Assembly (NCBI GenBank): GCA_024811115.1
Contig: JAKOGH010000681.1
Location: forward strand, 62,001-126,000
Direction of reading: 5' to 3'
DNA from: Terana coerulea
Taxonomy: Eukaryota; Basidiomycota; Agaricomycetes; Polyporales; Phanerochaetaceae
Length of the DNA: 64,000 nt
Shown here piece after piece: positions 30,574 to 58,880 of this stretch. Both the position numbers and the translations under genes were made by a program. Position 1 is the stretch's first letter. Each line of letters begins with the position of its first letter. Under the pieces are notes generated by a model, which did not search any database, was not told where the DNA came from, and saw only the letters and a list, made by a program, of their open reading frames with translations.

Positions 30574-31248
30574 CTACACGATATTCCTGCACAAAACTGG
30601 CTGCCAAATCACCGGAGTCACCATCCGCAGCTCCAGGAGAACGAGGGAGTCGAAGCTGATCCTGGAAATCCACCAGTCTTGGCTCGCCTCAGTCGATTGC
30701 TCGCCAGCCATTTCCTACCGTATAAGGTCAGCAACCGTACCACCATGCAGCCGATATCCGAACGAACCTGCAAGAACATGTGGACGACTTTCGCAACTGC
30801 CATACCGAGCTTGGCGAGGGTGACGAGCCGGCGCCCAATGCTGGGTCCAGCAGATTCACCTGTCGCGACCACCTGTTGTAACCCGGCCACTGTGGTACGT
30901 GAGTACGTTATCTACCTCTACGCACGTGAGAAAGCTCACGTGAATGCAGATGTTAATGGTCTTCAAGGGAAGCGGTTTGTCCCTGTTGTCGAGAGTGAGA
31001 AAGCCGGTGGTCAAAGCCTCCTGCAACGGAACCCCAGCGGCATTGCTGGCTCTGAAAAAGAGCTGAGCGGATGGAGGCGACCCTTGTGGGGGCCTCAACA
31101 CCGTCTGAGGAACAATGATTCCCGGTAGGTTGGAAGTTGTAGGATAGTCCATGAAGGTGTGGTAATTGCTCGTGTTCATCGGCTGTGTCTAAGACGAGAA
31201 TCTTGGTGAGATGTCAAGTTCACGAGCAGTGTTGCTTGTACTCACCAT
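30574..31248 (-). CDS. PGIIVPQ/WPGY/WQP-family protein, copy A
   Basis: Unrecognised small protein family; this is the only minus-strand copy. Exon 1 is just the ATG (31246-31248), then a GTGAGT intron, then exon 2 from 31188 (TQPMNTSNYHTFMDY), which carries LPGIIVPQ and ends INICIH. Exon 3 begins WPGYNRWSRQ. After that, an alternative frame (IGRRLVTLAKLGMAVAKVVH) matches other copies, so one base is probably missing in CC at 30859-30860. The last exon gives EMAGEQSTEASQDWW and LVLLELRMVTPVIWQPVLC before the stop. No signal peptide, transmembrane helix or known catalytic motif is visible. See copies B (32708), C (34429) and D (58002). Confidence 0.7.
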
Positions 31249-32707
31249 CTTCGCGAAGTGTGAAACGATGAAAGCTGGAAGAGTGGGGTAAGTTACCCTG
31301 TGCAGGCGTTCCGGGAACACCGTGGCTACGTTCTTTATACTTCACCTCCCGAGCCGCGGTCACGGTAGTTTGAGCCGATGGAGACCCTTGGCGGGGAAGG
31401 TCATCGCGCTGGATGCTTTATTACATGCGAGTTGACCACGTTTTATCGTTAAAGAGGCAGACGAGCTGTGTCATGTCTTGCATCCTTTCCGACAAGCAAG
31501 CGATTTATGGATGTTGAGAGCCAATTATGACACCAGTGGGAATTCCTACTAGAGGTCACGCCGTGTTCGCGGCTAACGGAGCACCTTGATTTAGGAGCTC
31601 AATATTCGGCTTGCCACTGGGCATGAGGAATACTTCATACGTACATGTGTTGTGGCAACCCTCGAGGCTGCAGGCCGGGCCAGGATGTCGCAAACAGGGA
31701 AACTGGATACACTAGCAGTGGACACGAACGTCAATAGAATGGCCTTGCGCTCGGGATGATCGAGCGTTCGAAGGGAAGGCGACAGTGCGGCGGCGTTCCG
31801 ATCTCTTGATCCAGCGCCGACGGGCGCCGAAAACCCACGGCGGCTACTCGAGTTCACCCGAAAAATGGATGGTAAATGCGACAAGCAAAATGAACTAGTA
31901 GGAATTCCGGGAAGGCGTCTTGTGCGTCCATTTTCGTGCATCCATCCTGGTCGCTGATAACGAAGGTTTGAAGCGACCGCGCAGCAATGTGGCACGCACA
32001 GGGCTGTGACGATCATACGCATTTCAACGGCTTTTTGACTTGTTCCTGGGGGTGTCCAACGATGAAGTCAGCCCCTGTCAGGGCTGCAGCAAAAATACAA
32101 GTCATTCAGCTGTCCTCCGTGTCCTTGCCACATGACGTTACCCAAGTCCTACGGCATGGGTGAGAACGCATCATTAATCGCTAAGCCCCTGTGGTGGAGA
32201 AAATCTCGGAAGCTACTCACAGCCTTAATACAGATATTGCTCTAGTACAATGGCGTAGGGCAGATCGCAGATGCAATTGCCGTACATCGTGAGCTCCTGT
32301 CTCCCCTCGTGGGAAACGCCTGAGCCTGTCGAGTACTTGATCTCCGAGTCGCGTGGCGCATCTGCCCTGTACGGCCTATGTTTGTAGCTCTGCGTGCAGC
32401 GACGCTCGGAATCCTCCGCGCAGGCGCGGCTGGGACCCTGTACGACTGGCGTCATTCCAGCCGGACTGCCTACAGCACTCGGCTAGCGGGCATCTCGCTG
32501 ATGAGGATTAGCGTCGGGGAGTGCTCACCGTCAAACGAGCGTTGTACTCACCCGAGAGACAGACGTGAAGTACACGTAGAATTATTTAGATCATTCTGCG
32601 AGGATGGAAACCGGAAACGAGCTTGGTTTAAAGACCCAGACGAGCGATGGTGAGCAGGACAACGAATCCAGCCGTACTCGCAACACCACACGATCTACGT
32701 AGAAGCC
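31249..32707. other. Intergenic between family copies A and B
   Basis: 1.46 kb between two diverging copies of the same family. No further gene is supported; a 143-codon minus frame at 31591-32022 lacks any recognisable feature. Confidence 0.4.
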
Positions 32708-33380
32708 ATGGTAAGTCTTTAGGATTGCGAGTATATCAGACGTTAATTCAAGCCGAACTTATAGCCGGGACAACCTACTTACCACACGTTCATGACCATT
32801 GCTGACCATCATAAGCTTCCCGGAATTATCGTACCTCAGGAGGAATATCGCGCCGCCACGCGTTACAGGGTACTGCAGCCCATCAAATTTGAGGAGAATG
32901 GAGGGATTGGCGTGAATCTTGATCATGCGTACCAAGACAGCCGACTCAGTGGACTTCTCAATCGCGATTCTACCCCGCCTCTGTCAGACAATGCAAGAAA
33001 GATCACCATTCGCATCAACGTACGTCAGCTGTTCGCAGTATGAGCATCGTGCATTGACCGGAGGGCACCAGTGGCCGGGATACCCTCCGTGGTCCAACGT
33101 GATGCATGTCTTCGATCACTCGTACGAAGCACGACCTATTACGATGGCAAGAGTTGCACATGAGATCGCTAAATTTATGCGCTTGCTCATGCAGGTAAGC
33201 TTCTTCGTACCCGTTTGGTCAAACTGTAACTCACCGTGCGTTATGCAGGACCAGAGGGAAAGTCCTCCGGCCGAACTCGACTGGCAGCTACAAAACTTTG
33301 ATCTGTCCAAGCTGATGTTGATCGAGTTGCGACACGTGTCTGCTGGAAGCTGGCAGCCAGTTTTCTGTTGCTTGCCCTGA
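32708..33380 (+). CDS. PGIIVPQ/WPGY/WQP-family protein, copy B
   Basis: Intact, 170 aa. Exons: 32708-32710 (ATG only), 32765-33019, 33072-33194 and 33249-33380; all junctions are phase 0. Exon 2 reads PGQPTYHTFMTIADHHKLPG then IIVPQEEY, exon 3 starts WPGYPPWSNVMHVFDHSYEA and has a helix (TMARVAHEIAKFMRLLMQ), and exon 4 holds ELDWQLQNFDLSKLMLIELR followed by HVSAGSWQPVFCCLP-stop. Phase-0 introns throughout, each separating one conserved block, suggest a modular gene. Diverges from copy A, same strand as copy C. Function unknown. Confidence 0.72.
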
Positions 33381-34428
33381 GCCGGGCGGCGAATGAGTCT
33401 GGATTGAACAGGGCTAGAGCTCAGCTTTCCTACATCCGGCCCATAATTCGTTCAGTAGAATTACCCTTGAACTTTATGTAAGCGTAGACGCACCGTTGCG
33501 TCCGTGGCAAACGCCAATAGATTATATTATGGATCAGCTCATCTGCCATAGACGCATCATAGCGTCCTTTGGGTGTTCGACCATATTCAGGCTCTTGTAG
33601 GCGAAGGTATGAAGCAAACTCGATTGCAATGGCAGCGTCTCATGGCGCTATACTCCTTTTGGTTCCCTTGATAAGCTCCACAGCCTTAAAACTGGGACAC
33701 GTAGTACTTACAGTTATTTGTCATCAAGTAAAGCTCGGTTGTTGGGTCTGCGATTCATCTCCGTACATTCGCATTGGCACACGCTATTTGGGATAGATCA
33801 TTTATATTGCTGGATGGCCGATCCATATCATCGTTGCCTATGGCCCAAGGGATGGTGACGGTCGTCAGTACGTGGAGTCCATTCGCGCTTAAGCCACTCA
33901 GGGCGTCAAGTCCTTTGTGGCGTTATTCACGTGAGGATTCGGCTTCTTGGCGCTTGGCCACCCTTCCAGAACCTTGACCAATACTACCTAGGTCCTTGAC
34001 ACAGCCTGCGGCACAACCGTACTTCGACTGTCAACGAATTTGACTGAAAAAAATATGCGTTACTCGACAGATTTGGTGCCATGCAATCCACAAAGCTCAG
34101 AAGGCTTTGGGTTGGGAGGTCCTCGCTAGCCATCACCCTCGCAATAGACAAAGCAATGCGACAGGTACGTTGCCACAGCTGAGACGCAGCGATTGCTACA
34201 CCGCCCAAGCTCTAATGTTCGTCTCAAATGCAGACTACTGCCGAGGGATAGAGGGATGTGGCCGCAACTTAGCCGCGGCCTTTTGTGTGGTGGCCACCAT
34301 GACGCTCATCTGCTTGAGCCTTCAAATACTCAGACGGAGGCCCATGCTGCTTCTCTACGTTCGTCTCTAACTTCAAGTTTACTTAGCACCCTCGATCCGC
34401 CGTCACTACACTACATTTCTTGTTCAGC
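33381..34428. other. Intergenic, possibly holding a decayed family copy
   Basis: 1.05 kb between copies B and C. Around 33935-34165 there are weak echoes of the family: a TTATTCAC|GTGAGG junction like the exon 2 end of copies A and D, then TGGCCACCC (WPP for WPGY), then LAITLAIDKAMRQ before a GTACGT, as at the end of exon 3. Stops interrupt all frames. I treat this as suggestive only. Confidence 0.25.
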
Positions 34429-35279
34429 ATGGTAAGTTGTCCCCTCCACCATGTACGAGATGCGCTGAAGGCGAGGATTAGGGCCGGACGAAACAAAAAT
34501 TGCTGCACGGAGAGGCAAAATATCACTCGTCCACAGAACCAGCCTTTGCTGAGATGCCTATCTTACCTGGCGAAATAATAGGTCAGAAGGTGTGCACAGC
34601 TGCCCGAGGGAAGACCACGACACCGGAGTACTTTGAGCCTATCAGCTTTACCGTGGTCCAACCCGTTGAGAATACCAGCACGGTCAACCTCATTCCAGGT
34701 ATCTGTATGACGGACGCCACGGATGAAGAAAAGGCCCACTACGCCCTTGATCGCTCCTGCACAATGTTCAACCTCACTGCGATGTCCGGCGACGTCGAGT
34801 TCGTAATGCACGTAAGGATTTCCTTCTTGCGTGGCTTTTTGATGGTATCCCTGACTTTGCACACAGTGGCCTGGCTACAATCTCTTTCGTCGAGCGATGA
34901 AACCAGGCGAGAAGGGATGGTCGCGACAAAACATCGCCTTACGCGTGGTGGATTTCTACAAAGACTGGTACACGGTGAGACGAATCATGTGCCTCACTTC
35001 CCGTCCGCCTGAGTTGAGCAATGCCGGCAGGTTGTGACGAAATCAAAGGGAAAACAGATCTCAAACGAGCTACATGGCCAACCGGTGAACTACTTCCTCG
35101 CGAGACTGCGAATCCTCGAACTGCGCCACATCGCAGGCAACACCTGGCAACCCGTGTTTTGTTTTTGCGCTAACCCCCAGATGGCCCAGATCACGCTGCC
35201 GACGTCACGCGTCAAAGTGGAAGAGTCTGAGCCAAATTCATCACCGTCTAGAGCAACCCGGCGCCGGCGCCAGGCCTGA
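34429..35279 (+). CDS. PGIIVPQ/WPGY/WQP-family protein, copy C (divergent)
   Basis: 229 aa. Exons: 34429-34431 (ATG only), 34482-34811, 34867-34974 and 35031-35279, all phase 0. Exon 2 has LPGEIIGQKVCTAARGKTTT (in place of LPGIIVPQ) and ends VEFVMH. Exon 3 starts WPGYNLFRRAMKPGEKGWSR and ends DFYKDWYT. Exon 4 has LARLRILELRHIAGNTWQPV and a longer tail ending in a basic cluster (RATRRRRQA), possibly a nuclear signal. It keeps the exon/intron structure of copies A, B and D despite low sequence identity, so duplication is old. Function unknown. Confidence 0.7.
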
Positions 35280-35780
35280 ATACTTAGACGACATACGATC
35301 CTTCAGCCACGAATCTTGCTGTGCAGGCAGTCCCTTCCATTGCTGTGCTTGCTGCTCCCCCAGGCCGATATGCATATGCTCCGTTCTGTTTGAATCGCAA
35401 AGCACCTACCTGTACTGTATGACGTATGATACTTGATAATGTGACCTTGTAAAAATAATGTCGCAAAAACCGCCACAGCCATATGCGGCCGCATCAGGCC
35501 GCAGCAGATCTGGCGAGGCAAGGAGGCGCCCGGGGGCCTGATATGGGTCGAAAGTACGCTAAACTGCGCTATCAGCTCCGCTCAGGCCTGCTCAGCCTGA
35601 CGGGCCCTGCTAGGGCCTAATCAGCCTGCGGGAACCTCAGCAGGCCCTATCCGGCTTGGCCAGGCATGCGTATAGACACACGAAAATGTTATGCACCGCC
35701 GTTCAACTACTTACCTAGTTTGTTACCTTGTCACAACACCCTAGACACAGACTGCATTAATGAGACGGTCAATTTACCGA

Positions 35781-35862
35781 GGGCACCAGCGGGATTTGAA
35801 CCAACGGTGTAAATATTACCTACAAGTGTCATTAGACCAACTTACCACTGAGCCACGCGAGC
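35781..35862 (-). ncRNA. Degenerate tRNA-like sequence (tRNA relic or SINE head)
   Basis: On the minus strand there is a good A box (TGGCTCAGTGGT) and, about 45 nt on, a B box (GGTTCAAATCC). The middle resembles a Thr-type anticodon arm (ACTTGTA). The acceptor halves (5' GCTCGCG, 3' TGGTGCC) do not pair and the T stem has a mismatch, so I do not call a functional tRNA. Confidence 0.4.
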
Positions 35863-36300
35863 TTTGTTTCCAACTTAACGTTATGAGTTATATAGCGACT
35901 CTCATTACACAAACATATCATATTCTACTGCAACGGTTGTTGCGAGACTGTCACTAATGTGCTAATTGTCTTCTGTCTCAGTGTTCTGTCCATTTGCAGA
36001 GCTCTCATTCTCATCTAGCTGTGCAAGCATTTCCTGCAAGCCTGTTCACTTGCTCCCGGGCCCCTGAGCACCACCTGCGCCCCTTTGCTGACAACCATAA
36101 CCAGTCGTAGAGTTAGGAAATAGAACCTCATCCCATGTGCGAAATATATCAAGCACGGCGGGGTGCTCACCGAGGATTCCACGCATGAGATAGACAAGAT
36201 ATTCTTCGAAGTCCTTCTGCCAGTTGATGCGACTCTGGGCGCCCGTCTCGTGAAACTCAATATCGGGAGATAGCGCCCAGCATGCCTGAAATATGAAAGC

Positions 36301-36788
36301 ATACTATGACTGGCCCCACGTTTATAAGGATTCCTACTCTTTAAGGGGCTGCTCCCGCGTTACTACGATTTTCCTCAGAAATCCTGGTACACCAGTGCAA
36401 TACTGCCTTGCGCACGTACCTGTATTTTCTCTGTATTTTTAAGATGAGTGTAGGGCGAATGGGAGAGGCTCTTTCGAGAGAACCCACCTTTCAAAATTAT
36501 GGGCGGCATCACAGAATTCCCCAATTCAGCGATGATCCTGCATGCGGATTGGTCGATGGGATGATTAGCGCCAAAATGGGCTGGTTCTTGCAAACGGCCG
36601 TCATTCGAGCTTTACCAAAATTCCTATCCCTCCCGTTCACGAAATTGCACAAACCAACTTCACAGCCGCTTAGGATCATCCCACATGGATCTGAAGAAAA
36701 TTCTGGGCACCAACGAGTTGCAAGGGAGCGCAGGAAAGCGAGATTATAAAAGGTGGTCCAATTATAAACGTGGGGCCAGTCATAGTAT
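36301..36788. mobile_element. 488-bp element with perfect 27-bp inverted ends
   Basis: The left end 36301-36327 (ATACTATGACTGGCCCCACG plus TTTATAA) recurs exactly inverted at 36762-36788. Size and long perfect termini fit a MITE. No clear target duplication is seen in the flanks, and the internal frame 36408-36749 has no recognisable domain. It lies inside the larger TA-flanked element, implying nested insertion. Confidence 0.55.
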
Positions 36789-37280
36789 TGAGCCAGAGAA
36801 ATCTATGACGACTGACACCAACGTACCATAATGCTTGCAGCGACGATAGCACCGGGTGTGGTGTGTGTTAACCGACACGTTCCCGCGTAAGCTGTACATA
36901 GTGCCGCGACTGCTCAGGCCTGACCCAAACTGCCCACCTTTGAGAGACCCTGCTCAGACGCTCGCGTGCGCGTCATCAGGCCTCATCAGGCGCTCAGAGC
37001 CTGGGATGCCTGGTCAGGTTTTTCGATTTTTGCGACATTAGCCTTTCTTGACCGCACTATATGCCATGGCCTAGGACCACTTTGAGATTGTCACCGACGT
37101 CTATTGCATACCCGCATGGTCTACGCACAGAGATTCGGCTGGTACCACGACTACAGAACCAACGACGGAGAGCAAGATCGTATACCACGGAGCAAAGCAC
37201 AGAACCCGCAGCCAGGTAGCACAAACCCACCGCGGGACAAGATAGCTCAAGCATACAGCATGGAGAATTCGGAGCATATG

Positions 37281-40200
37281 CTAAGTGCCCAAAGACAGCG
37301 ATTTCGCAGCAGATACGAGGGCGGCGTCCGGGGTGAGGTTGACGACGGCGATCCGGGGTTGCTCCTCAATGCCCTCGGCCTTACCCGAGTCGATCGCAGA
37401 GTCGGCAGGCTTGCCAGATGCGGTCGCTGCGCCCGTGTCGCTACGCGACGGCGACGGCGGTGAGGTCGATACAGGGGACACCGACGCCGCGTATTGTGAG
37501 CTACTGGCGCAGGACATCGCAGGAGAGCCGCTGGTGGAGGAGACAGAGGCGAAGGGTGATATACATCGGAAATCTTGTGACGATGGAAGCGCATGAGACG
37601 GTGGTACAGGGGAGTAGGCAGACCCTGAGCCGGACCTTGATATGCTTGAGCTGGACGACTGACGGCGGCTCAGAGCGGCGGCTAGGTGTTGGACGTTGGA
37701 CGGCAGGGGAGGCGTACGTGCGATGATAGTTGATTGAGAATGCGAGTGAGCGTGGGATACACGGGGTGAGGGTATATATGACTGTGATGGTGTTGTGGAC
37801 ACTGGTGGGCTTGGTGCTATCGGACTATGCACGGCTGGTTGAGGATGTCGTGGTGAGGACGGCGACGAGTTGTCAAACTGATGGTACAGAGCATGCTGCT
37901 GTCCTCGAGGAAGACTGGCGCCGTCTACTCCTCCATACGATGGCAGCCTCGCCACCGGCATGGCGTAATTCGAGCTCAAAGCTCGAACCATCCTGTCACG
38001 AATAGGTGATCCAGTTTCATAGAATACATTTGAGCGCTGTTGCTGCTGTTGTGCTGGTTGTGTGTTGATGGTTGGAAGTGGTGGACGTGAGGGGTATACT
38101 GATAATGGAGTAACAACTGCTGGCAGTGCCGACAAAGAGACTCGGTTGAATTGAAGGGGGCGAGCTGGGCCAGATATTGATCGCCTGGGAGTCCCGGCGT
38201 CCATCCGTGGTGGAGGAACAAAACCGATGTCTTGCTGTCGCGGTCTAGACTGAGGATGGAATCCCTCAGCTGAGGCTTCCGAGACGTATTGCATAGGCCT
38301 GACAGACGGTCGACCGCGCAACTTCGCTAGCAACCTCTGGTCCGCTATGCCCTCGTGCTGGGAAGCAGGATAACGCAAATCACCTCGTGAGGTCGAGGCA
38401 CCGGGGACGTAGTGGCTGAACTGAGGGGACGATTGCGCCGAGTAGGATGTTTGACGAGGATAATACTTACCCTCTGTGACAGACCGGATTGACGCCACGT
38501 CATCCGAGTCTGCCACCGACCGACGGTCGTCATCGTCCGTAAAGATCTCGCTATTATTAGACGAGGATGCCGTCTCGTGCTCGTACTCTCGCGCAAGGGT
38601 TGAAGCGGTCCCAAGACTCAGGCCTTGCCCGAGGCGGTGCTCGAATGCCGAGCGATCCTCTTCCGGCGCCTCGGGCGGTGGAGGACTGGTCCACTTCGCA
38701 CGCTTGGGAGCCATATGGTCTGGCTGTTCCGGAGGCAAGGCAGCCGGCGCAGGCGAGAGGGACGACGGTACGTGGTGAACTTCTGGAGGCGATAAGCGAT
38801 CCGCCTCGGAGGCTCCTGGTGGTCTCATTGGATTACTGCCAATGGTGTACGGTGTTTGCGCCGCTTTGGGCACTGCGGACAACCGTGGCGCCCGGAAGTA
38901 CGACCGGGATGGCGAGGCGTGTAGAAGCTCTTCGTCTTTTCGTTCTTCGCATAGCTGAGCGAGTGCGACGAATGCCCGTTCGGGGCGAGCCGCCAATATC
39001 CTAGAAGCGCGCATGAACTCTCCTCGGATCTTGTATTGAGATGTTTCAGCTGATAGGTGATGTAATGGTACACCAGGACATACCGTGTACAGACCATCCC
39101 TAGTAACGCAGCGAGAGACATTGAAGTCGGTCTCGAAGGGGTCCTATTGCATCTTCAGCGAAAACCAACAACCTGAGATAGGCTTAGATATACCTCTATA
39201 CATAGGCGATTCCTCTCCCTCGACGTTCCTTTGTCGGGCTTTCTGCGGTGTCAGCGATAGAGTCGTCGCCGTGGCGAGAAGACCTACGTCGTTATCCCAT
39301 CCTTTGCTCTCCTTGCTAAGCAGACCCGCACGGATGGAGATAACCCCGGTATTATAGGTAAAATCCCTTGAGTAGAATTTGAAAAAGTCGATCAAGCTAA
39401 AGAATGCCTCAATCATCGCCACAACACATCAAGAACGCTCAATACTCACAGCTCTGCAACGCTCTCTGTATTTGACGATTGCCATCGTTCTCTAAGCAGA
39501 CTGATATCGTCGAAAAACCTGGAGGACATATCAATGGACCGAGCGAGATGGATCGCGATCAAAGTCAACAGACCAAATATTGTGACCATTAAGATGTGAT
39601 TCTTCCTGTGACATGATAAGCAGTGGCCGACCGCAAGAGCATATGGGCACAAACCTGTGAGATAGGTCGTAAGGGAGGTATTTGTTGGAGATTTGGTAAT
39701 ACAGGTGGGTTCTTGACATGGACGAGGAAATATATGACAAGTAGTACGTAGCCGTATGATGACAGGGTGCCCTTGTAGGGCGAGTTGATCTTTCTGAATG
39801 TAACAGTAAGCTTCAGCTACGGAGCACAGGAGGTATACCTGAGGTATACTTGCCTTCTTTTACACCAAACTTTCACTAATGAGCAGTGTAGTTAAGCCCA
39901 CTGTGTCCCCCAAATCACAGATGATATACTCACGAAATAAGACCATAGTGCGCACACGCGCAGGGTCGATCATAGCGTAGCACATCAGTAGTCGTGTGTT
40001 CTCTAGAGCAAGCCTGTTCTCGAAGCCGATATCGCAGGCTATGCCGAATGGTAACCCGGGCTTTGGGTCTAATGAGAGCTTCACAATTGGTATTCGGGCA
40101 TGTGGTAATGGTTTAATGTGGAATTTCGTCTCTGCACGGTGAAATGTCATTTGGAAGGTGCAGAGCAAGCGGGGAGAATACGCACCTCTTGCGAAGAGAT

Positions 40201-40620
40201 CCCCCAGCATATTCACCAGATCCGTCGCAGGCAAGCGTTCCTCCGAATCAATTAGACAGCACAGGTCCATATCTTTCCATGCAACTTGAGCCAGAGCCTA
40301 TGCAACCTGATACATAGAGACACACCCGAATTGCGCAAGCTGAATCCGTTGGCGGTACTTCCGAAGGATAGCAACCGGCTATCGAGCTCAACCGTACGGA
40401 TGAGTCGCTCAAGTAGTTTCCTAACATCTTCCTTGATTGCCAGCTCTTCGGGCGTAGGCAACAGTTGGACGACGAAGTCGAAAAGGCATTGCGAGAGCTC
40501 TGCAACAAATTGATGTTTCGAGACCTGTGGCCTGCGTGGCGGACTGGCCTGGACGGCGGCGTGCTGTCGAAGGGATTGGCTGTGTCCGTTGCTGAGCGTC
40601 GGGGAGTATACGGCAGCCAT
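37281..40620 (-). CDS. Cid1-family terminal nucleotidyltransferase (TUTase/poly(A) polymerase)
   Basis: Adds untemplated U or A to RNA 3' ends. Minus-strand exons give RKLLERLIRTVELDSRLLSF, then GSTANGFSLRNSDMDLCCLI. The catalytic DMD is intact because an intron splits its first Asp codon (G|AT). Next come HARIPIVKLSL, MVLFLKVWCKRR, INSPYKGTLSSYGYVLLVIY and VKNPPVLPNLQ. The PAP-associated part follows: NIWFFDDISLLRERW, FYSRDFTYNTGVISIRAGLL, EDPFETDFNVSRCVTRDGLY, IRGEFMRASRILAARPERAF. A Ser/Pro/Gln-rich tail of roughly 520 aa ends the protein. Two acceptors (before INSPYK and before PDKGTSRERN) are ambiguous between CAG and AAAG three or four bases on. The N-terminus is uncertain: the frame is open upstream to 40755 without ATG; 40620 is the first in-frame ATG. 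Neighbour PAN3 also acts on mRNA tails. Confidence 0.86.
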
Positions 40621-40755
40621 GGGTCTTGACCGCTGCGAGCTTTGACTGGGGATCCTGCCGCCAGATGCTTTGTCTTGGGAGAGTTGCTGATGCTCGTGGA
40701 CGTTGAGATCAGAAAGAGTCCAGGTCTTCACTCGCTTGGGACGGGCCAGCAGCAA

Positions 40756-41847
40756 TTCACCCGGTTATAGACTTCATCATTACATTAGACGCTCGCGGGC
40801 CACGGCTCGCCTGCCGCCAGCTGCCGCCTCATGCTACGCTCAACTTCATCGCCCCCTGGCACACCCGTCCTGCGCTTTCAGAGGCTGAAACGATTCACTC
40901 AAACGCTAAGTACCAGTACCACACTTGGCGAGGACTGCCCCGCTTACAGATAACACTTACTGCAGCGGTTCGCCGACCGCTCACTGCGTTCCGCGGAATT
41001 GGTAAGTTCACAAGGAGCTGATCAACCGCTCTACTCTGGTTGGCTAGACCAGCCATTGTTCCCAGTGGGAGATTCGTTTGTGAAGCAAACAGGCTTTTAG
41101 ACCAGTGTATCCTTCTCTTCACAAGGAACTTCGAGGGCCGTGCGCCGAACAGCAAGCGGCGTGGCTCGAGGGTACGAACTGGGGGACGGCAAGGTCATCC
41201 CAGCAACGGACCAGCTTTGCGCGACTTGGTGTGACCCCATTCAGACCTCCAGTCCCATGAGCACGGTATCATGAGCTAGCGGCTTCATAGGACCGTGTAA
41301 GTATGATAGCGAATGATCAGCCGTCTTCTCATGAGGTCATGGTACATACCGGAAATCCAGACACGAACGAGATGCTCGCGTGCAATGCGGTTCTCTATTG
41401 TAGAGATCCCGTGGACGGTATTAAGGCTCCAAATGACTCGAGTATGCGAGTGCCGCCGTTACTGTGCTCGCTCCCGCCCTGAGAACCTGATGGCAATGAG
41501 TAACGGCTGATAGGGGCAAACATATCCGTCCAACCACATACCTGCTGTTGAAAGGAAGGCATGAGCAATGCACACTTCGTAGCGGCCCTGAGTGAACAAC
41601 ATTGTCACAGCTTTGCGCTGAGGAACGCGGACCCTGAGCTGTCGTGGAGGCTATGTTGGACACACCTACCTCTACGGCGCAGCACGTAGTAGGTAAACCG
41701 CCGCAGTTGAATCACAGGACGGGCATGGGTGGCTGCAGAGGGACAGGATATTTTTATTGTTTTCTGTGTCTTTTTCAGATTCTAACTATTTTCGTCCAGG
41801 GGTAAAAGGAAAAGAATTCCAGTAGCTGCGGTGGACCGCCATTCCTG
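40756..41847. other. Intergenic between Cid1-like 5' end and PAN3 3' end
   Basis: About 1.1 kb. It may hold a missing first exon of the Cid1-like gene, but I could not identify one; a minus frame at 40895-41155 has no recognisable features. Confidence 0.35.
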
Positions 41848-45743: not shown

Positions 45744-46253
45744 AGTTCGTCATTGAATCACGTTGCGTACTTTTTCTCGCTCTTGTATCATAGATATCAT
45801 CCATGGAAGATTATTCCTACTGAATACATCAGGTCCTTTGCTACGTTCGAAGGCATGCTGCTGTGGACGTCACGCGAATCTAGATGATGGTTAGTTCGCC
45901 GAATGAATACGCCGACCACGGCGGATGAAACAAACAACTTTGCGCACGTGTACTGTCAGCTCATCACCATTCCACATGTACAAACCCGGTTGCCTGTAGG
46001 CGATCGACGTTTAAACGTACCCCGATATCAGTTTCTCAACGGCAGGGGATCTGCACTGCACCGATACAGGACCCTTGGAAGTTACAATCACGAATATCGC
46101 TGAGGCTTCGGCGAGTAAACACATCGCGCTTATTGCATCTCGGCACGAAATAGTGCAGGTGTGTATATATTCATTTTGCCAGAAGCTCGCCATGCGCAAG
46201 CTCTCCAAGCTGGTCGCTCCCTTTAGATTTCTTATCCAGTATTCGCGGACAGC
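45744..46253. other. Intergenic upstream of the P450 array
   Basis: 510 bp; no gene seen. Serves as the promoter region of the first P450. Confidence 0.4.
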
Positions 46254-48596: not shown

Positions 48597-49123
48597 AATA
48601 TCTATACTGGCTACTGCGATCATACCACTCATGCGCGTGACAAACCCCTGGCCCCGATGATTTATGTGATGTAGATCTCCATCCGCGAATTGAGTATCTA
48701 AACTTTGTTCAGTAATACGCTGATCTGATTCGCTTTAGGCTTGCAAATGAGCTGCTCTAATCCGCTGCGAGTTGGCACTCGATGAGCAAACATAAACAAC
48801 AAGCGTTTGGCTATTGGTCGAGAAAGGATAGGTTCAACGAAACGCCCATCACGTTCATGCATCATGATCTCGCCTCCTCTACCCCTATACTAGTTCCCAC
48901 ACAGCCTATAGGCTCATAGTCCGGTCGACGATCATATTCCAGCACTTCAGAGCGGAACAATGGTGAAATGTGCCTTGATAGGGGCGCGGACGCCACCGAA
49001 GATGCCGATAGGCCTCGGCAGCATTTCGGCGGGACGCACTGACCTTTGCCCTAGCCATATCATGTCCGGGAGGCTGTATTTCTGACAGCGTGAAGAAGCC
49101 CCCTTACTACGTTCTGTCCGAAG
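48597..49123. other. Spacer between P450 copies 1 and 2
   Basis: 527 bp. No gene or remnant seen. Confidence 0.4.
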
Positions 49124-51424
49124 ATGAACACCGTCTCGCTGGTGGCATTGTCCACCGTTTGTGTCGCCCTGGTGAAGAGATACCTGGAATACCGTGCTGT
49201 CATCTGGTCTTTCAAGTGAGCTACTATCCTCTTGTAGACCGGCTCGATGGTTTCTAACATCCTTGTGTTCAGCAACCTGCCTGGTACTCGCACGGTCATC
49301 TCTGGCTTCGGGATCATCGGATTCTTGTTCAAGAGACCCATTCGCGGTCTCGTGCGAGGCAGCTTCCGTAATTGGATCAAGAAGCACGGCGACTTCCAGG
49401 AGTGTGGCGTGGACATCATTACGGCTGTACGTTCTCCGCTGCCAAGGTTGTCTCGGGCCACCAGGGAGAAGCTGAACTCTGGCAGATCGCCGTCGTGCCC
49501 TCGGCGCACGGCGTGCTGCTCGTCGCGGACCCAGCCGTGATCAAGGCGAGTTTTATGACGTTTGATTATTGGCCTTTATTCAACGTACAGCAGGAAATCA
49601 CCGCCCACAGGCATAGGTTCCCCAAGCCGCTCTATGGATACAAGGCATTGTCGTTTTTCGGACCCAACATCGTTGCGTCCGAGGGAGAGCAGTGGAAGCG
49701 CTACAAGAAGATATCCGCACCAGCGTTCTCGGAGCGCAACAACAAGCTGGTATGGGACGAGTCCGTCAAGATCATGCTGGATCTCTTCGAGAACGTGTGG
49801 GGTCAGCAGCAAGAGATCGTAGTGGACAACGCGCAAGATGTTACTTTACCGGTGGGCGTTTCCTGGATCGTATTGCGGGCTCATACTGACAAGGACGGCT
49901 TGATAGATTGCGCTGTTCGTCATTGGCGTCGCCGGTTTTGGACGGCGCATTTCCTGGGAGTCTGACTTAGTCGTTCCGTCAGGACACATGATGACCTTCA
50001 AGGTGCGTATTGTTGACAGTAACACTCCCTGCGGCACTGCACGTGAGAGCTCATTCATTGCACATAGGAAGCTTTGCACGTCGTATCGACCGAAATACTC
50101 ACAAAAATCGCCACACCAAAGTTCATCATGGATCGCGCTCCGACGAAGCATCTCCGCAACGTTAAGCTGGCGTACGAAGAGCTCGACGTAAGTTCCCTTG
50201 CTTTGTCCCCATCGCCGTCCGTGTGATCTCATATCGAACGCGTTGCAGCAATACATGATGGACATGATCAACGCGCGTCGAAGTGCGGAGAAGAAAGAGG
50301 ATCGTTACGACTTGTTCAGCAGCTTGCTCGACGCAAATGAAGAGGAGTCAGACGGACAAGCGAAGCTGGCTGACCGGGAACTGCTTGGAAACATTTTCAT
50401 ATTCTTGCTTGCAGGTGAATAGATCCCGCCTACCTGCTGACGAATCCTGACGAATCGTTTGCGCTGTAGGTCATGAGGTGAGTGCTTTTGTGGCGCTGGC
50501 GGCCACGTTATTTCTCACAGCAGGTCTAGACTACGGCAAACACGCTATGCTTTTGCTTCGGCCTTCTTGCCATGCACCCTGACTACCAAGAGGAAGCTCT
50601 ATGAGCAAATCAAGACTGCCAATCCAGAGGGCACAATACCCGTAAATCAGCTACTACTTACAACCGCTATTTGCCGGAATTAATTTACTGTTATCAGGCG
50701 TACGAGGACATGAACAAATTCACAGAGTCGTTGGCGTAAGCATATCATTACTACCAGAGTCTTCAAATAATAGATGCTGAAACTATATGTAGTGTCTTCT
50801 ACGAGACCCTTCGGATGTTCCCACCGGTCATCAGCGTCCCAAAGACCTCTACCGAAGACACAACCCTGGTGACCAAGGATAACCTTGGGAACAGCGTCGT
50901 AGTCCCCGTTCCAGCCGGGACACACGTTGTACTGAGCATCTCGGCGCTGCATTATAACCGTGCGTCCTCCCTGCTTCCGCCCAATATTGCACAAGCTGAC
51001 GATTCCGCACAATGGCTAGCTCGTTACTGGGAAGACCCACACGTCTTCAAGCCTGAGAGGTTCCACGGTGACTGGCCCCGAGACGTTTTCTTGCCCTTCA
51101 GCGCTGGTGCCCGTGCATGCTTGGGCCGACGGTACGCTAATGTCCCAATATGCAAGGCCGCCTTTGCTGAACGCATCGCAGATTCTTTGAGACCGAGGGC
51201 ATCGCCATTCTAACAATGTTGGTTTCTCGATACAAGATTGAGGTGAAGGAAGAGCCTCAATACGTACACGAAACGTTCGAGCAGCGGTATGAGCGCATAT
51301 TCCAGGCCAGGCAGGGCGTGACTTTGACGTAAGTCGTGAATGCGTTTCATGACGCCGTGCGGGTATATCAGGCTAATGAACTCGTAGACCTGTGCGTATG
51401 CCGCTTGTTTTCAAACGGCGATAA
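49124..51424 (+). CDS. Cytochrome P450, tandem copy 2
   Basis: Paralogue of copy 1. N-terminal anchor MNTVSLVALSTVCVALVKRY; PGTRTVISGFGIIGFLFKRP; WKRYKKISAPAFSERNNKL; ALFVIGVAGFGRRISWESD; I-helix AGHETTANTL; FYETLRMFPPV (ExxR); heme loop FSAGARACLGRRF; end PVRMPLVFKRR. The 8-nt microexon (50470-50477, GTCATGAG) is shared with copy 1, here with a normal GTGAGT donor. The intron after PAVIK has a GC donor (AAG|GCGAGT), is 48 nt, in-frame and stopless. One extra base in GG at 50592-50593 breaks HPDYQE / KLYEQIK. Copies 1 and 2 share exon structure and are each other's closest relatives in the array. Confidence 0.89.
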
Positions 51425-52297
51425 GCGGGAATATGTAACGCTGTGCAAAATTCACAAGTTGCACCGGATGTCCAATATTGCGCACGCATGGCTGTTCCCT
51501 TCATGTAATTGACGTAGGAAACTATGCAGTATGCGGCTCCTTACTGGCTCATGAAATCACTACAGACAGATCCAGCCTGATGTAGCGAGCTCAAAGCTTG
51601 AAAGGGGAAATGTAAAGGGGACAGACAGCTTGAATGTTCCAGTTCATGAACGCGACTGGCAAGCGCGCGTCGGACTGCTCGGGGCTACGGGCGGAATGAT
51701 AGACGCTCATTTTCGCTTACGGAAAATTGAAATGCGGGGAGATCAGCGGGGAATCAAGCGCCCTCTCACCGCAACGCCACCGCCACAAAGCTGCTGCTCA
51801 GACCCCGACGGCCTAATTTTTTCTTTTCGACGGCACCCACCTTGCGAGCTGGACTGCCGGCTGCTGCCCTCGTCCAAATCACGTATCTTGCTCTCGAGCC
51901 CTCTTTCATTTGCGCTTACCTCGCCGCCAAACTGGAACATTCGGTCTGGGACGTGTCTGGGATCCAACTTCCCAGGGGCGCACGTCGCCGCTGCGGAAAC
52001 ACCGTCGCTGGCCATATGCGTGCGTGATCAGACGCTCTGCGTGGGATGCACACATCCACGATGCTGACATTTTGACGTTCGCCTATAGATATGTGCCTCG
52101 GGACCCATGACAAATTCTGGCTTAGTGCGTCCGTCCGGCTAACGGCTCGGACTGCTCGGAGAACCTATGTGCCTCTCTTAATATAAGCCGTGAGGGAATT
52201 CATTGAAGGCTGGCTTTGTTGGCTGCTTGAGGCACCGTGATCTTCATCCCTCTCAACCACCACCGCTGCCACTACCCCTACCACCACCACCGCCGCC
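51425..52297. other. Spacer upstream of P450 copy 3, with TATA-like site
   Basis: 873 bp. TTAATATAAGCC near 52177 is a good TATA-type site 120 bp before the ATG. AATGATAGACGCT near 51694 also occurs upstream of copy 4. No gene is supported. Confidence 0.4.
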
Positions 52298-54463
52298 ATG
52301 AACACCACAACGCTGGTGGCACTCTCCACGTTGGTCCTCTTCGTTCTGAAGAGGTACTTCGACTATCGTTCGGCCGTGCAGTCCCTTCAGTACGTCTGCA
52401 TTGTCCTTTTGCATGGTACATGTCTGAACACAGTCCAAAGGAACCACCCAGGCACTCGCACGCTGTTCTCCTCGTTCGGCCTCATGGGCTTCGTCTTCGC
52501 CAAGCCATTACGAGGCATTTGCCGCGGAGGAATGGGCCCCTACTACACCAAGCATAGTGACTACGAGGAGGCAGGCGTAGACATTCTCAGTGCCGTACGT
52601 CTTCAATGTGGTCGTGGTCAGGGGCCTCATCGAACTGACGACCGTGCCAGATCTCTGTGCTCCCCACCACCCACGCCGCGCTGGTCGTGTCGGACCCCGC
52701 TGCTATCAAGGAGATAACGATGTACCGCACGCGCTTCCCGAAGCCGGTCGTGCAGTACACGGCCCTCTCGTTCTTCGGACCGAACATCGTCGCGTCAGAG
52801 GGCGATGAATGGAAGCGGTACAGGAAGATTAGCGCGCCGGCGTTCTCAGAGGTGCGTAACTTAAAAACCCTGTGCAGACCAATCATGAGGCTAATATGCT
52901 AAATGACAAGTAGCGCAATAATCGCCTGGTATGGGACGAGACGGTGAAGATCATGCTGGACCTGTTCGACAATGTGTGGGGCGAGAAGAAGGTCATCGAG
53001 GTAGACCATGCTGTCGAAGTGACGCTGCCGGTAAGCTCGTAACACTGCAAGCTGATCGCAGATCCCTGCCTTCTCACTGTGTTCATCAGATTGCATTGTT
53101 CGTCATTGGCGTCGCCGGCTTCGGAAGACGAATCTCGTGGACTGACGACCTAGTTGTGCCTCCAAACCATAAACTGGCGTTCAAGGTATGGCTATCACAT
53201 CTTGTCTGAATTCCCCTCAGGTCGTTCCAAATAGGACGCTCTTCACGCTGTCTCCACGGACGTCTTCGTCAAAGTCGCCACACCTGGGCTCATCATGAAG
53301 TATGCGCCTACGGCCCGCATGAGGCGCTGCAACCTTGCATTCGACGAAATTGAGGTGAGCTGTGCTGAGGTCTTGTTGAATTATCAGTATCTCATACGAG
53401 TGCATCCAGCAATATATGCGGGAAATGATCACGGCACGCAGAACTGCGGAGAAGAGGGAGGAACGGTATGACTTGTTCAGTAGCTTGCTCGATGCCAGCG
53501 AAGATGAGTCGGACGGTATCACTATCACAGACCAAGAACTTCTTGGGAACATCTTCATCTTCCTGCTCGCTGGTGCGTCTAGGCTGCAGGTTGAATTTGT
53601 AGGTAGTGGCTAAACACATCATCCTAGGTCATGAAACTACTGCCCATACTCTCTGTTTCACTTTCGGACTTCTCGCTTTGCACCAAGACAAGCAAGAAAA
53701 ACTATACCAGCACATCAAGAGCATTATACCCGACGGAAGGATACCTGTGCGTAAATATTTAAATAGTTTTATGCGCTCCTCACTCAGCTTGTGCCACAGA
53801 CTTACGAAGAAATGAACTTGTTTACCGAGTCACTTGCGTATGTTATCTATACTCCTCCACGATATCATGCTGTATTAAGGCGGCTTTTCAGTGTGTTCTA
53901 CGAGACCCTTCGTCTGTTCCCTCCAGCGCCTGCTGTTCCAAAGAAGGCTGCGGAAGACACGACGCTTACCACCACGGACGACGCAGGAAACAAAGTGATT
54001 ATACCTGTCCCCACAGGGACGGACATCGTCCTCAACATCCCCGGATTGCACTTTAACCGTGAGCCCCGTCTCACGCTCCGCCCTGTGCGTGCGCGGCTGA
54101 CTGTCATTGCAGCGAGATACTGGGACGACCCGCACGCGTTCAAGCCCGAGCGGTTCCACGGCGACTGGCCGCGCGACGCGTTCCTGCCGTTCAGCGCGGG
54201 GGCGCGGGCGTGCCTCGGCCGGCGGTTCTTCGAGACGGAGGGCATCGCGATCCTCACGATGCTCGTGGCGAAGTACCGGATCGAGTGCAGGGACGAGCCG
54301 CAGTTCGCGCACGAGACGTTTGAGGAGAAGAAGGCGCGGTTGTTGGCGGCGACGGGCGGCTTGACTCTGACGTATGTCCGAGACGTACATTGAGGTTGAT
54401 GCTTGTGGCTAATGTTGCTCTTCCAGGCCGATTCGGATGCCCCTTGTGTTCAAGAGGAGATGA
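52298..54463 (+). CDS. Cytochrome P450, tandem copy 3 (intact)
   Basis: The one array member readable without any frame correction. Anchor MNTTTLVALSTLVLFVLKRY; PGTRTLFSSFGLMGFVFAKP; AIKEITMYRTRFPKPVVQYT; SFFGPNIVASEGDEWKRYRK; VIGVAGFGRRISWTDDLVVP; I-helix AGHETTAHTLCFTFGLLAL encoded without the internal microexon; ETLRLFPPAPAVPK; PERF motif in DDPHAFKPERFHGDWPRD; heme loop FSAGARACLGRRFFETEG; end PIRMPLVFKRR. About 540 aa, the usual P450 length. The anchor implies ER and dependence on P450 reductase. The substrate is not inferable; basidiomycete P450 arrays often serve xenobiotic or terpenoid oxidation, but that is family knowledge only. Confidence 0.92.
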
Positions 54464-55185
54464 ATATTGTAGCCGTATAGGAAGCATCCCATCCTGGATA
54501 TTAATTTATGTTATATTTTTACCTTGTGATCTATTACATTACATGGGATTTAGTGACGTGCTCGGTGGAAGCCTGACAACGGTGTGACACACGCACAAAT
54601 GGGTCTTCGCTCATTTGCTCAGCTGCTTGCCCGCTCGCTTTGACGCGGGTCGGCGTCGGGCTCTGGCCATTTCAGGCAGGGAGCGGGTGGCGTAAATGAT
54701 AGACGCTGAACTTTTCCGTGGCCCTCGTCGCTTTCTTTCAAGTGTCGACAACGACCTCAGTGACGCCGCCGTACTCAGCTCAGCCCTGTCCCCCGATCAC
54801 GCTTGACGACGATCCGGACGTTCGACGACGCTCATGCCGCGCCCATGTCGCTCTATATATTCCGCCCTCATGACCCTCAGCCACTATCTCACAAGTTCGC
54901 AGCTGCTCGCAGACCTGTGCTCTGTGCAGTCTTCTCACGCCCTGCGGAGGCAACAATGCCACCCGCCATGCTATCTGCGTGTGACCATCACCGCCCGCCA
55001 TGCAACCTCTTATGTGCAGACAAACCTCGGGTGTTTTGACACATGGAGGCTTAGTGTAAATGGTTCGGCGAAGGGCCGGCACTGTATGGTGCCTTGTGTA
55101 AGGAGCGGAAGCAAAGACTCGCGGCGTTGCCGACTCTTAAGCAGGCCTCGACACAGCAAGCCACCTGAAGTGACACCATATCGCC
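54464..55185. other. Spacer upstream of P450 copy 4
   Basis: 722 bp. AATGATAGACGCT near 54696 is shared with the upstream region of copy 3; CTCTATATATTCCGCC near 54850 is TATA-like. No gene is supported. Confidence 0.4.
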
Positions 55186-57354
55186 ATGAACACGACGACA
55201 CTGGTAGTGCTGTCCACCGTCCTCCTCTACTGCCTGAAGAAATACCTCGACTTCCGGGCGGCGGTCAGGGGTATCGGGTGCGTACCACACTCCCTCTCGT
55301 CGGTCTACGCAACACTGACGAGCACCCCCAGAAACCACCCTGGCTCCCGAACTCTCTTCTCCACGTTTGGCATCCTCGGGTTCCTGTTCAGGAAACCCAT
55401 CCGCGGCGTCTCGCGCGGGGGCTTCGGTCGTGGCACGCCAAGTACGCGGACTACCAGGAAGCCGGCGTGGACATCATCAGCGCCGTGCGTGCTCGCTGTC
55501 ACGCAAACTCTCGCCCGCTTTCGGCACTGACGACGCCTTAGGTGGCGGCCATCCCGCAAGCGCACACCGTGCTCCTCGTCTCGGACGCCGCCGCGATCAA
55601 GGACATCACCGCCAACCGCCACCGTTTCCCCAAGCCCGTGAAGCAGTACCGAGCCCTGACTTTCTTTGGCAGCAACATCGTGGCGTCGGAAGGGGATGAG
55701 TGGAAGCGCTACAGGAAGATTAGTGCCCCTGCGTTCTCCGAGGTCCGCCATCTCGATCATATAAAGCGGGAAGTGTACTTATCGGGCATGTAGCGCAACA
55801 ACCGCTTGGTATGGGAGGAGACAGTGAAGATCATGGCGGACTTGTTCGAGAATGTTTGGGGCGAGAAGAAGGTCATCGAGGTGGAGAATGCTATCGACGT
55901 GACTCTCCCGGTGCGTTGCTTTTGAGACGTCTGTTGAGTTATCTGTCCTCACGCAACTGCAGATTGCGTTGTTCGTAATCGGTGTTGCAGGATTCGGCAG
56001 ACGCATCACCTGGCAAGATGACGTGGTGGTACCCCCAAATCATCAAATGGCCTTCAAAGTACCAAGCTTTTCAGTACATACTGAATTCCAGCTGACATTC
56101 CTGTGTAGGATGCCTTGCACGTAGTGTCCACCGAAATCTTCGTCAAGGTCGCAACGCCTGCCTGGATCATGAAGTACACGCCCACCGAGCGCATGAAGCG
56201 TGTGGCGCTAGCCTTCCAGGAGCTCGAGGTACGTTTGCTCACACCATATCGATACTGATGCTGACGTATACTGGATGCTGTAGCAATATATGCTGGAAAT
56301 GATCCACGCTCGTAGAAACTCGGAGAAGAAAGAGGAGCGATACGATTTGTTCAGCAGTCTCCTTGACGCGAGTCAAGACGAGTCTGACGGCCAAATGAAG
56401 CTTACGGATCAGGAGCTCTTGGGGAACATATTCATTTTCCTGCTTGCCGGTCAGTCCACTCGCCGATAGCCCCTAATAGCACAGCGTTCACTGACTTTGC
56501 AAGTCCAGGACACGAGACGACCGCGCATACGCTCTGCTTCACCTTTGGTTTGCTGGCGCTATATCCGGAACACCAAGAGAGATTGTATGAACACATCAAG
56601 AAGGTTATACCTGATGGCCAGATACCGGTGGGTAGACTCAAGAGCTGCACACCGCATTTCATCATTGAGCACTGCCATTACCTAGACATACGAACAGATG
56701 AACGAGCTGTCCGAGTCTCTTGCGTACGTTCTGCCAGAGTGATATTCTTGAACGCCGTCATCTCATACTTCTCTAGTGTCTTCAACGAAACCCTCCGCTT
56801 ATTCCCACCGGTCATTGGCATACCTAAGACAGCCGCGGAAGATACCACGCTTACCACCAGCGATACCGCAGGAAACAAGGTCGTCATCCCTGTCCCCGCA
56901 GGAACAGCCGTCGTGCTCCAAGTACCGGGGCTACACTACAACCGTTCGTACCCCTTCCCTTTTCCATCCTTTATCCTCGCAAGTCCCAACTCAACCCTCC
57001 CTCAGCGAAATACTGGGACGACCCGCACGCGTTCAAGCCCGAGCGCTTCAACGGGGACTGGCCGCGCGACGCGTTCCTGCCGTTCAGCGCGGGCGCGCGC
57101 TCGTGCCTCGGCCGGCGGTTCTTCGAGACGGAGGGCATCGCGATCATGACGATGCTCGTGTCCCAGTACCGGATCGAGGTCAAGGAGGAGCCGGAGTTTG
57201 CGCACGAGACGTTCGAGGAGCGCAAGGCACGGCTGCTGGCCGCCAAGGGCGGTCTGACTTTGACGTGCGTGATAGCTGTTGTTCGCTGTAGTACGAGCGC
57301 TGACGTGTTGTGTTTAGGCCTGTTCGTATGCCCTTGGTCTTCAAGCGGCGCTGA
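55186..57354 (+). CDS. Cytochrome P450, tandem copy 4
   Basis: Closest to copy 3. Anchor MNTTTLVVLSTVLLYCLKKY; HPGSRTLFSTFGILGFLFRK; FFGSNIVASEGDEWKRYRKI; ALFVIGVAGFGRRITWQDD; I-helix AGHETTAHTLCFTFGLLAL with no internal microexon; FNETLRLFPPVIGIPK; DDPHAFKPERFNGDWPRD; heme loop FSAGARSCLGRRFFETEG; end PVRMPLVFKRR. One base appears missing in G5 at 55417-55421; with it the sequence reads RGGLRSWHAKYADYQEAG, matching copies 1 and 2. Its 3' end lies 156 bp before a fragment of the PGIIVPQ family. Confidence 0.89.
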
Positions 57355-57510
57355 GCGCACTAGAGTCGGGGAGTGGCTTCGTCGACTTCCATGTGACTCC
57401 GAGTGTACTATCAGTGATTTTTGGCACAGCGGATTTTACCGCCTCGGCGCATGCGATTTGATGCATATTCAGATCGGTAGTGCAGCTGGATACTGTTCAT
57501 CAGGCCTCAG

Positions 57511-57630
57511 GGTATACCTGCTACACTAGAGCTCCGCAACGTTGCGCCGGGCCTTTGGCAGCCGATCCCGTCATACGGCTATTGGTACAACGAGCAGCTC
57601 CCATTGCCGGCGGAGCTCGACTTGAAATGA
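57511..57630 (+). pseudogene. Last-exon fragment of the PGIIVPQ/WPGY/WQP family (copy E)
   Basis: After a plausible acceptor (CCTCAG) the frame reads PATLELRNVAPGLWQPIPSY and ends LPLPAELDLK-stop, closely matching the last exon of copy D (LIELRNVAADIWQPV, LPLPEVEM). No ATG exon, PGIIVPQ exon or WPGY exon is found between P450 copy 4 and this point. I call it a truncated copy, probably left by a duplication next to the P450. Confidence 0.62.
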
Positions 57631-58001
57631 CGCACGTTTGATACCTGTTGTTCTCCGTGTGCTGATGTGTACGCTCATCACGCTACATAGTTCATCGAGC
57701 AGGTGCATTTGCGAGTGCGTTACAGTACACAGGCGAGGCCCAGAAAATGAACAATAGGATGATCCGAGAGTCGGATGGCCCATTTACACATCTGTTGCCA
57801 TTAAATCTAGGTGGCCACACAGCATAAACTTCATTGCCAAAGGATCGACCTGGGACAAAGACAGGAGTGGCTGCCGAGTGGCTTCATTGATATGGTGGCC
57901 TCTGTCCACCGGGTGCGCATATATAGGACAGCGGTTCGCTGCAACGGCCGTCACTGCAGATATCTTGTCGTTAACGTTAGCCTCCGGAAAGCCAAGTCAC
58001 C
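57631..58001. other. Promoter region of family copy D
   Basis: 371 bp. GCATATATAGGAC near 57915 is TATA-like, about 85 bp before the ATG-only exon. Confidence 0.4.
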
Positions 58002-58880
58002 ATGGTACGTCGTCTTGGGATTTTCCTCACGAACGGCAGTACTCAGCAATCGTCTCTGGATGCGTAGGAAGCTGGTCAAGCTCAGGAACGCCTGATCACT
58101 AGCATTCACCATGCGCAGAATCCAACTTTGCGTGGGCGCAACGACATTCCGGGCGTGATTGTACCGCAGACCGTCTACCACCCATCTCGCCCTGAAGACG
58201 CGCATGCACCCCCTTATGAGCCTGAACCGGAGATTCGATTCCACCAGAAACCGCCTTTGGACTTACCAAGTGTTGAGCGGGACGACCGGCGACGGCCTGT
58301 GCCGTACGAACCGCCACAAGGCCGCGGACGTATTGGCCGCGGTGCCCCGTCGAAGATAAATCCTACTCCAGGAATCAAGCTTACGGATGACCCGGGAACG
58401 TTGTGGCGACCGGACAGATATGTGAAATATCTCGAGACTAGGGCGTGGAACCTAAAGCTGTACATTCACGTGAGGATGTTGAATTACTCTCCTTCGAACC
58501 GGGTCTGACGAGGTTCGTGACAGTGGCCTGGATACGATCCTGTAGAGGAAAATGTCTCAGTGCCTGCAGCAGACAACGGGAGATGCACTTATTATGCGCT
58601 GTGCAATGCTGTCTGCGGGAGCATTTTGTCGATAATGGCAGTGAGTACTCAGGCTTTGACTATACGAAGCCTCAGTCATGTATACTCATGCATAATTTTA
58701 CCATGTTAGGCACTACAGTCTAAGGACTGTGGAATTCCCGATTGGCAGACGAACTATATGCCTAACAACAGAGTATACCTCATAGAGCTCCGCAATGTTG
58801 CGGCTGACATCTGGCAACCCGTTCTCTCCGTGGAACCGTACGAAGGGCTCACCTTACCGCTGCCCGAGGTGGAAATGTGA
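58002..58880 (+). CDS. PGIIVPQ/WPGY/WQP-family protein, copy D
   Basis: Intact, 230 aa. Exons: 58002-58004 (ATG only), 58068-58469, 58524-58640 and 58710-58880, all phase 0. Exon 2 begins EAGQAQERLITSIHHAQNPT, has NDIPGVIVPQTVYHPSRPED and a long Pro/Arg-rich insert (RRRPVPYEPPQGRGRIGRGA), and ends ETRAWNLKLYIH. Exon 3 begins WPGYDPVEENVSVPAADNGR and is Cys-containing (CTYYALCNAVCG). Exon 4 has VYLIELRNVAADIWQPVLSV and ends LTLPLPEVEM. It lies 22 kb from copies A-C, so the family is dispersed as well as clustered. Function unknown. Confidence 0.72.

Follow-up and report, generated by a model that had tools for sequence, protein, structure and literature searches.

Why should the first coding exon of a gene consist of the start codon and nothing else? 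The question is raised by a stretch of 64,000 nucleotides from the basidiomycete Terana coerulea (bases 62001-126000 of contig C526, in a genome of 48.4 Mb and 896 contigs; hereafter the window), where the copies of a gene family seem to begin with ATG and to pass directly into an intron. The answer to which the analysis leads is that an exon of ATG alone reflects a kind of intron position already described, here in genes of a catalogued domain family, DUF6741 (Pfam PF20526). The function of this family is not described as far as our literature search reaches; neither DUF6741 nor PF20526 was found named in any paper. On the whole we think it probable that the copies represent a diverged and multiplied branch of DUF6741 which has ordinary start-codon introns and encodes a compact binding module.

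Structure of the gene copies

The gene models of copies B, C and D were built by hand and spliced in silico. Spliced in this way, all three are open to the stop codon through four exons (B 3+255+123+132 nt, C 3+330+108+249 nt, D 3+402+117+171 nt), and their introns measure 50-69 nt and are all in phase 0. The original prediction that the start codon is followed directly by an intron, with phase 0 throughout, thus holds for these copies at the level of the sequence. It had extended the layout to a fourth copy, A, where it stands in part: the four pieces are arranged as in B, C and D, but exon 3 of A has 122 nt and breaks the frame. A second, in-frame ATG lies near the start of exon 2 of A, before the motif YHTF, so the upstream ATG is not needed by this copy. 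The features are, in window coordinates:

31..531, minus strand: copy 6; ATG-only exon 1 529-531, exon 2 from 463, exon 3 (WPGL) 135 to 31
30574..31248, minus strand: copy A; exon 1 31246-31248 (ATG), exon 2 30940-31188, exon 3 30768-30889, exon 4 30574-30714
32708..33380, plus strand: copy B; exons 32708-32710 (ATG), 32765-33019, 33072-33194, 33249-33380; 170 amino acids
32711..32764, plus strand: start-codon intron of B, 54 nt, GTAAGT...TAG
34429..35279, plus strand: copy C; exons 34429-34431 (ATG), 34482-34811, 34867-34974, 35031-35279; 229 amino acids
34432..34481, plus strand: start-codon intron of C, 50 nt, GTAAGT...TAG
57526..57567, plus strand: exon-4 relic, LELRNVAPGLWQP
58002..58880, plus strand: copy D; exons 58002-58004 (ATG), 58068-58469, 58524-58640, 58710-58880; 230 amino acids
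58005..58067, plus strand: start-codon intron of D, 63 nt, GTACGT...TAG, the terminal TAG being the sole stop read from the ATG

Exon 2 carries the signature LPGIIVPQ in A and B, LPGEIIGQ in C and IPGVIVPQ in D; WPGY opens exon 3, and ELRxxxxxxWQP is also present in A-D. Apart from these signatures the copies differ widely, C and D being 29% and 27% identical to B. The family is indeed multicopy, but the four full copies first counted in the window were too few, since copy 6 at the left edge and the exon-4 relic had been missed. Copy 6 is truncated by that edge: its exon 4 lies to the left of the window, and the donor of its exon 2 is ambiguous. No exon 2 or 3 was found beside the relic.

Family size in the genome

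Exon hidden Markov models (HMMs) made from the family alignment were run over bases 1-249,500 of the 321,136 of contig C526, and they located 12 copies between 48 and 160 kb in addition to the relic. A genome-wide search with B at E ≤ 10 gave at least 46 exon matches (a lower bound), which manual grouping reduces to 34 places on 14 contigs. Some of these places are probably alleles, to judge from the near-identity of contigs C751 and C733. The copies L039 and L040 on these contigs, themselves probably alleles by their sequences, are near-identical, but their homopolymers of A differ in length by one, which shifts the frame. Assembly errors of one base may be present at other places too, and some of the frame breaks described below may be among them. 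Upstream of copy 12 (C526:157513-158462, minus strand) lies an open frame with a loose family resemblance by eye and a plausible phase-0 intron in between; the two are possibly a two-domain gene.

Relationship to DUF6741

The genes had been described as an unrecognised family. This does not hold. B scores 28.4 bits against Pfam DUF6741, above the gathering score of 27 bits, and 24 of 30 public relatives match the same domain at E ≤ 0.1. When the 30 family proteins were compared with 27 canonical DUF6741 proteins by hhalign, the probability was 98.3% (E 2.4e-14, 113 columns). A wholly new family, considered as a candidate, was rejected on these grounds. Against the assignment weighs the behaviour of the other complete copies, since C has no Pfam match and D, with 16.5 bits, stays below the cut-off; C and D can be placed in the family only via their homology to B and its relatives.

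A canonical DUF6741 gene is present in the same genome on contig C629, with 80.6 bits on one exon, and is the sole place above the cut-off. Its two introns (CGG|GTGCGT...TAG|TGG and CAG|GTAAGC...CAG|GCA) are in phase 0 and lie before WSGY and after HFLQ. With columns matched by eye they align with introns 2 and 3 of B, C and D, so that position and phase are common to both, which points to inheritance by DNA duplication and to an old gene structure. No counterpart of the N-terminal segment YHTF...IVPQ or of intron 1 was seen in the canonical gene on C629.

The likeness to canonical DUF6741 extends to the C-terminal domain, the motifs W(P/S/T)GY and xGxWQP, the two phase-0 introns and the predicted order of secondary structure elements. 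The canonical protein differs in being encoded at one place above the cut-off and in having about 240 amino acids, of which the N-terminal half is modelled with low confidence and is probably disordered. The family in the window is multicopy, is smaller (170-230 amino acids here) and far more diverged, and differs in its N-terminal segment and in having a start-codon intron. As spliced here, the canonical product has 240 amino acids and finds 81 relatives at E ≤ 1e-5, by their names from many Agaricomycete genera; these we take to span orders such as Agaricales and Boletales. Another domain, DUF6699 (PF20415), also has many matches in the genome, 15 of them at E ≤ 0.001, but kinship with it was unsupported by profile comparison (0.1% and 0.3% probability), a weak test as the DUF6699 profile comprised only 3 sequences.

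Relatives in other fungi were sought by phmmer with B, which gave 16 proteins at E ≤ 1. A profile search with the proteins had been called for by the original prediction; run with the family profile it gave 30 at E ≤ 0.01, and led to the known family of undescribed function. Both counts depend on shared five-residue words, which wider kin could escape. Among the 24 of these 30 proteins that carry an organism name, 22 belong to Phanerochaete, Hermanssonia, Trametopsis, Cytidiella, Phlebia or Irpex, six genera of the phlebioid Polyporales; the remaining two are from Lactarius quietus and from a record labelled Pleurotus ostreatoroseus. The latter label, that of a species of Agaricales, holds besides this family member (P0024) a protein (P0051) which over 53% of the query is 89% identical to the canonical protein from C629; Phlebiopsis gigantea is no closer and no more distant. 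The Pleurotus ostreatoroseus assembly may be mislabelled or mixed.

In the account that we favour, the genes in the window would descend as paralogues from the conserved DUF6741 gene, having multiplied both in clusters and at dispersed sites, and would be known mainly from phlebioid Polyporales. They would have originated by duplication at the DNA level, which left two ancestral introns of phase 0 in place, one ahead of W(P/S)GY and the other behind the long helix, and would carry a different N-terminal segment, YHTF...LPGIIVPQ, behind a putatively spliced phase-0 intron at or near the start codon. An unnamed multigene family of wood-decay fungi is in this way tied to a conserved gene of undescribed function, and a confident model is available for it.

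Selection and possible decay of copies

The family had been thought old and under constraint. The age of its gene structure is borne out by the introns held in common with canonical DUF6741, but the constraint appears loose. In L041/L042, the only close pair tested (212 codons), the nonsynonymous rate (dN) was 0.156 and the synonymous rate (dS) 0.314, a ratio of 0.50 with a bootstrap range of 0.32-0.76. Three of the copies on C526 (A, E and G) have frame breaks. Together the ratio and the broken copies indicate birth and death under loose constraint.

Such findings could also mean that the array consists mostly of decaying copies with little function left, and the exon-4 relic would fit this too. 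We regard it as unlikely. Open exons and splice sites are intact in B, C, D, 1, L041 and L042; C and D keep WPGY and WQP in spite of their low identity to B; and some of the breaks may be assembly errors, as the one-A difference between L039 and L040 illustrates.

The first exon

The region of exon 2 was read in 23 copies, 12 on C526, one in L012 and ten in L037-L046, and a first-exon state was assigned to those named here. ATG stands directly before GT in 10 of them (1, E, F, G, 6, A, B, C, D and L038). First exons are longer in copy 5 (3 codons), in L039 and L040 (5 codons) and in 13, L041 and L042 (6 codons). In L043 and L044 the intron seems to precede the start codon, falling in the 5' untranslated region (5'UTR), with the ATG within exon 2, and in L012 and L037, where the exon 2 region was read, no intron was seen at or near the start codon. 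The pattern ATGGT(A/G)N(G/T) occurs 45-80 nt 5' of exon 2 in all ten copies, which were chosen from the 23 because they have ATG|GT, against 0.07 expected from letter shuffles. As far as letters alone can tell, the junction is not due to chance. Doubt attaches to two of the ten: to G, with the donor GTACTT and an intron that is open in frame and could be read through, and to A, with its alternative start.

It might be asked whether the upstream ATG is the true start at all. It could instead belong to a short upstream reading frame or to the 5'UTR, translation beginning at a methionine within exon 2 (HTFM, MPILPG or the ATG of A). Such a methionine is available in 1, A, B, C, E and L038, the public protein model P0003 begins exactly there, and the intron of L043 and L044 apparently lies wholly in the 5'UTR. 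Yet no in-frame methionine stands near the start of exon 2 in D, F, G and 6. In addition, the motif (Y/F)H(T/x)F in early exon 2, upstream of the internal methionine, can be made out in 1, A, B, E, G and L038, where its third positions change synonymously, and is also kept in most public relatives. A TAG directly precedes exon 2 in 9 of the 10 copies and is in frame with it in all nine. The synonymous changes, the copies that lack the methionine and the in-frame TAG jointly support a start of translation upstream of exon 2, and an internal start seems to us quite unlikely.

A TATA-like site 64-102 nt upstream was found for 7 of 15 starts (1.26 expected), consistent with ATGs that lie close to the transcript starts. 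The idea that a common start exon could be joined to any phase-0 module finds no support here: each copy has its own ATG, and the TATA-like sites accompany individual starts.

The ATG-only state was also mapped on a tree of 49 sequences, including 22 family copies (L039 was omitted and several copies were partial), which has modest support, an unsettled bootstrap and several long rows. On this tree the label needs 8 changes, compared with 8.4 for shuffled labels, and the starred branches force at least 4. With its label scattered in this way, the ATG-only exon is neither a single late invention nor a fixed character.

Introns at this position are not a novelty. An excess of start-codon introns in eukaryotes, fungi among them, was reported in 2006 (Nielsen and Wernersson, PMC1626468), and a study of Yarrowia reports that they are highly spliced and go with high expression (PMC13309789); they are thus a known class. 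The feature that defines it, a phase-0 intron between codons 1 and 2, is present by sequence in 10 of the 23 copies, and like the 2006 set (PMC1626468) the family includes fungal genes with relatively short proteins. That study characterises the carriers as conserved, lysine-rich and rich in ribosomal proteins, whereas here they are fast-diverging paralogues in which the state varies by copy. The tendency toward conserved carriers is not seen: C and D share 29% and 27% with B, and dN/dS is 0.50 in one pair.

The intron abutting the ATG would then be an ordinary start-codon intron, the boundary in other copies lying 3-6 codons in, lying in the 5'UTR or not being seen. It would most likely aid expression, as the other fungi suggest; a coupling of expression to splicing, raised by the original prediction, is possible. 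Within a single genome, 10 of 23 paralogues have a putative start-codon intron, and in others the boundary has slid, lies in the 5'UTR or is gone; together they constitute a natural series for testing why introns accumulate at start codons.

Predicted fold

The predicted model of P0001 is confident (predicted local distance difference test score, pLDDT, 92.7; predicted template modelling score, pTM, 0.88), and the canonical DUF6741 model has the same order of elements. The fold class is uncertain in spite of this and may be either beta-grasp-like or B3-like. The last 95 residues show the predicted order beta-beta-alpha-beta-beta of ubiquitin-like beta-grasp domains (ISG15, Ras-binding, PB1 and similar). 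B3-type domains (R.NgoAVII, At1g16640 and LlaJI.R1) gave structural alignments that were among the longest, with 90-106 residues. No solved relative was found by sequence at a meaningful E value (best 0.35), and Foldseek returned no match in the PDB at E ≤ 0.001, although an absent fold match proves nothing.

We favour a compact predicted domain of about 165 amino acids that would most likely serve as a beta-grasp-like protein-binding module, with partners differing by copy; predicted fold, small size, multiplication and divergence all suggest such a role. If the B3-like alignments are instead taken at face value, the copies would be diverged DNA-binding proteins. This is the main alternative on the fold, and we hold it to be distinctly improbable.

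The models of the family and of canonical DUF6741 match the same uncharacterised proteins from Pithovirus, Klosneuvirus, Marseillevirus, Satyrvirus and uncultured phages.

Intron ends, lengths and branch sites

The ends of the start-codon introns differ from those of the other introns. TAG terminates 9 of 10 start-codon introns and 6 of 22 second introns (Fisher p 0.0017); within the same ten copies it ends intron 2 only twice (p 0.0055). Read from the ATG, the terminal TAG is in frame in 5 of 10 (1, A, B, D and F, whose intron lengths are divisible by three), and it is the sole stop in 1, A and D. A stop within the intron or at its end is met in 7 of 10 (1, A, B, D, E, F and 6), E and 6 stopping earlier inside. 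Lengths are multiples of three in 6 of 10 start-codon introns, compared with 3 of 15 for intron 2 and 4 of 15 for intron 3.

For lengths and branch sites, 15 intron-2 and 15 intron-3 sequences were drawn from the 22 copies in which the intron-2 acceptor was read; in this sample the intron-2 donor of copy 6 is doubtful, with a phase-0 alternative 6 nt upstream, and the second intron of F starts with GC. The consensus branch site CTRAY occurs in none of the 10 start-codon introns, where chance would give 1.68. Intron 2 shows an enrichment of this site (7 of 15, against 2.6 by chance), and intron 3 does not (2 of 15, against 2.72). Matches to CTNAY are likewise fewer in start-codon introns, while those to the looser YTNAY are not.

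A terminal TAG would suit a regulatory switch, in which retention of the intron stops translation early and a copy is turned on only after its removal. We consider this very unlikely. Only half of the introns have their terminal TAG in the reading frame of the ATG; those of C and L038 shift the frame without an internal stop, and that of G is open throughout and ends in CAG. The TAG and length patterns were moreover found post hoc among related copies, so that the p-values overstate the effect. Hardly credible, finally, is the broader proposal of phlebioid arrays of fast-diverging recognition proteins, derived from a housekeeping DUF6741, many of them splice-gated by the start-codon intron and with a fold common to giant-virus and phage proteins.

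Neighbouring features

Next to copy C, at 35500-35690, GGCC and CAGGC words are dense, and TRF (Tandem Repeats Finder) finds no tandem array there; in a tRNA-like stretch near 35.8 kb ARAGORN recognised no tRNA. Just upstream of the exon-4 relic and copy D, a row of cytochrome P450 genes occupies 49372-57291 on the plus strand. Of its scanned open frames, 53767-54393 scores above and 49372-49965 below the Pfam p450 cut-off; a further member near 56.4-57.3 kb was identified by eye only. Downstream of copy D, an open frame at 61208-62572 (plus strand) contains tandem repeats of the type SPKNGINWGNVENGEILKSLYHRRSDDELLAR, for which TRF gives 2.2 copies of 72 nt and 7.8 copies of 96 nt. Its Pfam matches are below the cut-off and chance-like. 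The repeats are separated by basic pairs, an arrangement reminiscent of KEX2-processed repeat peptides.

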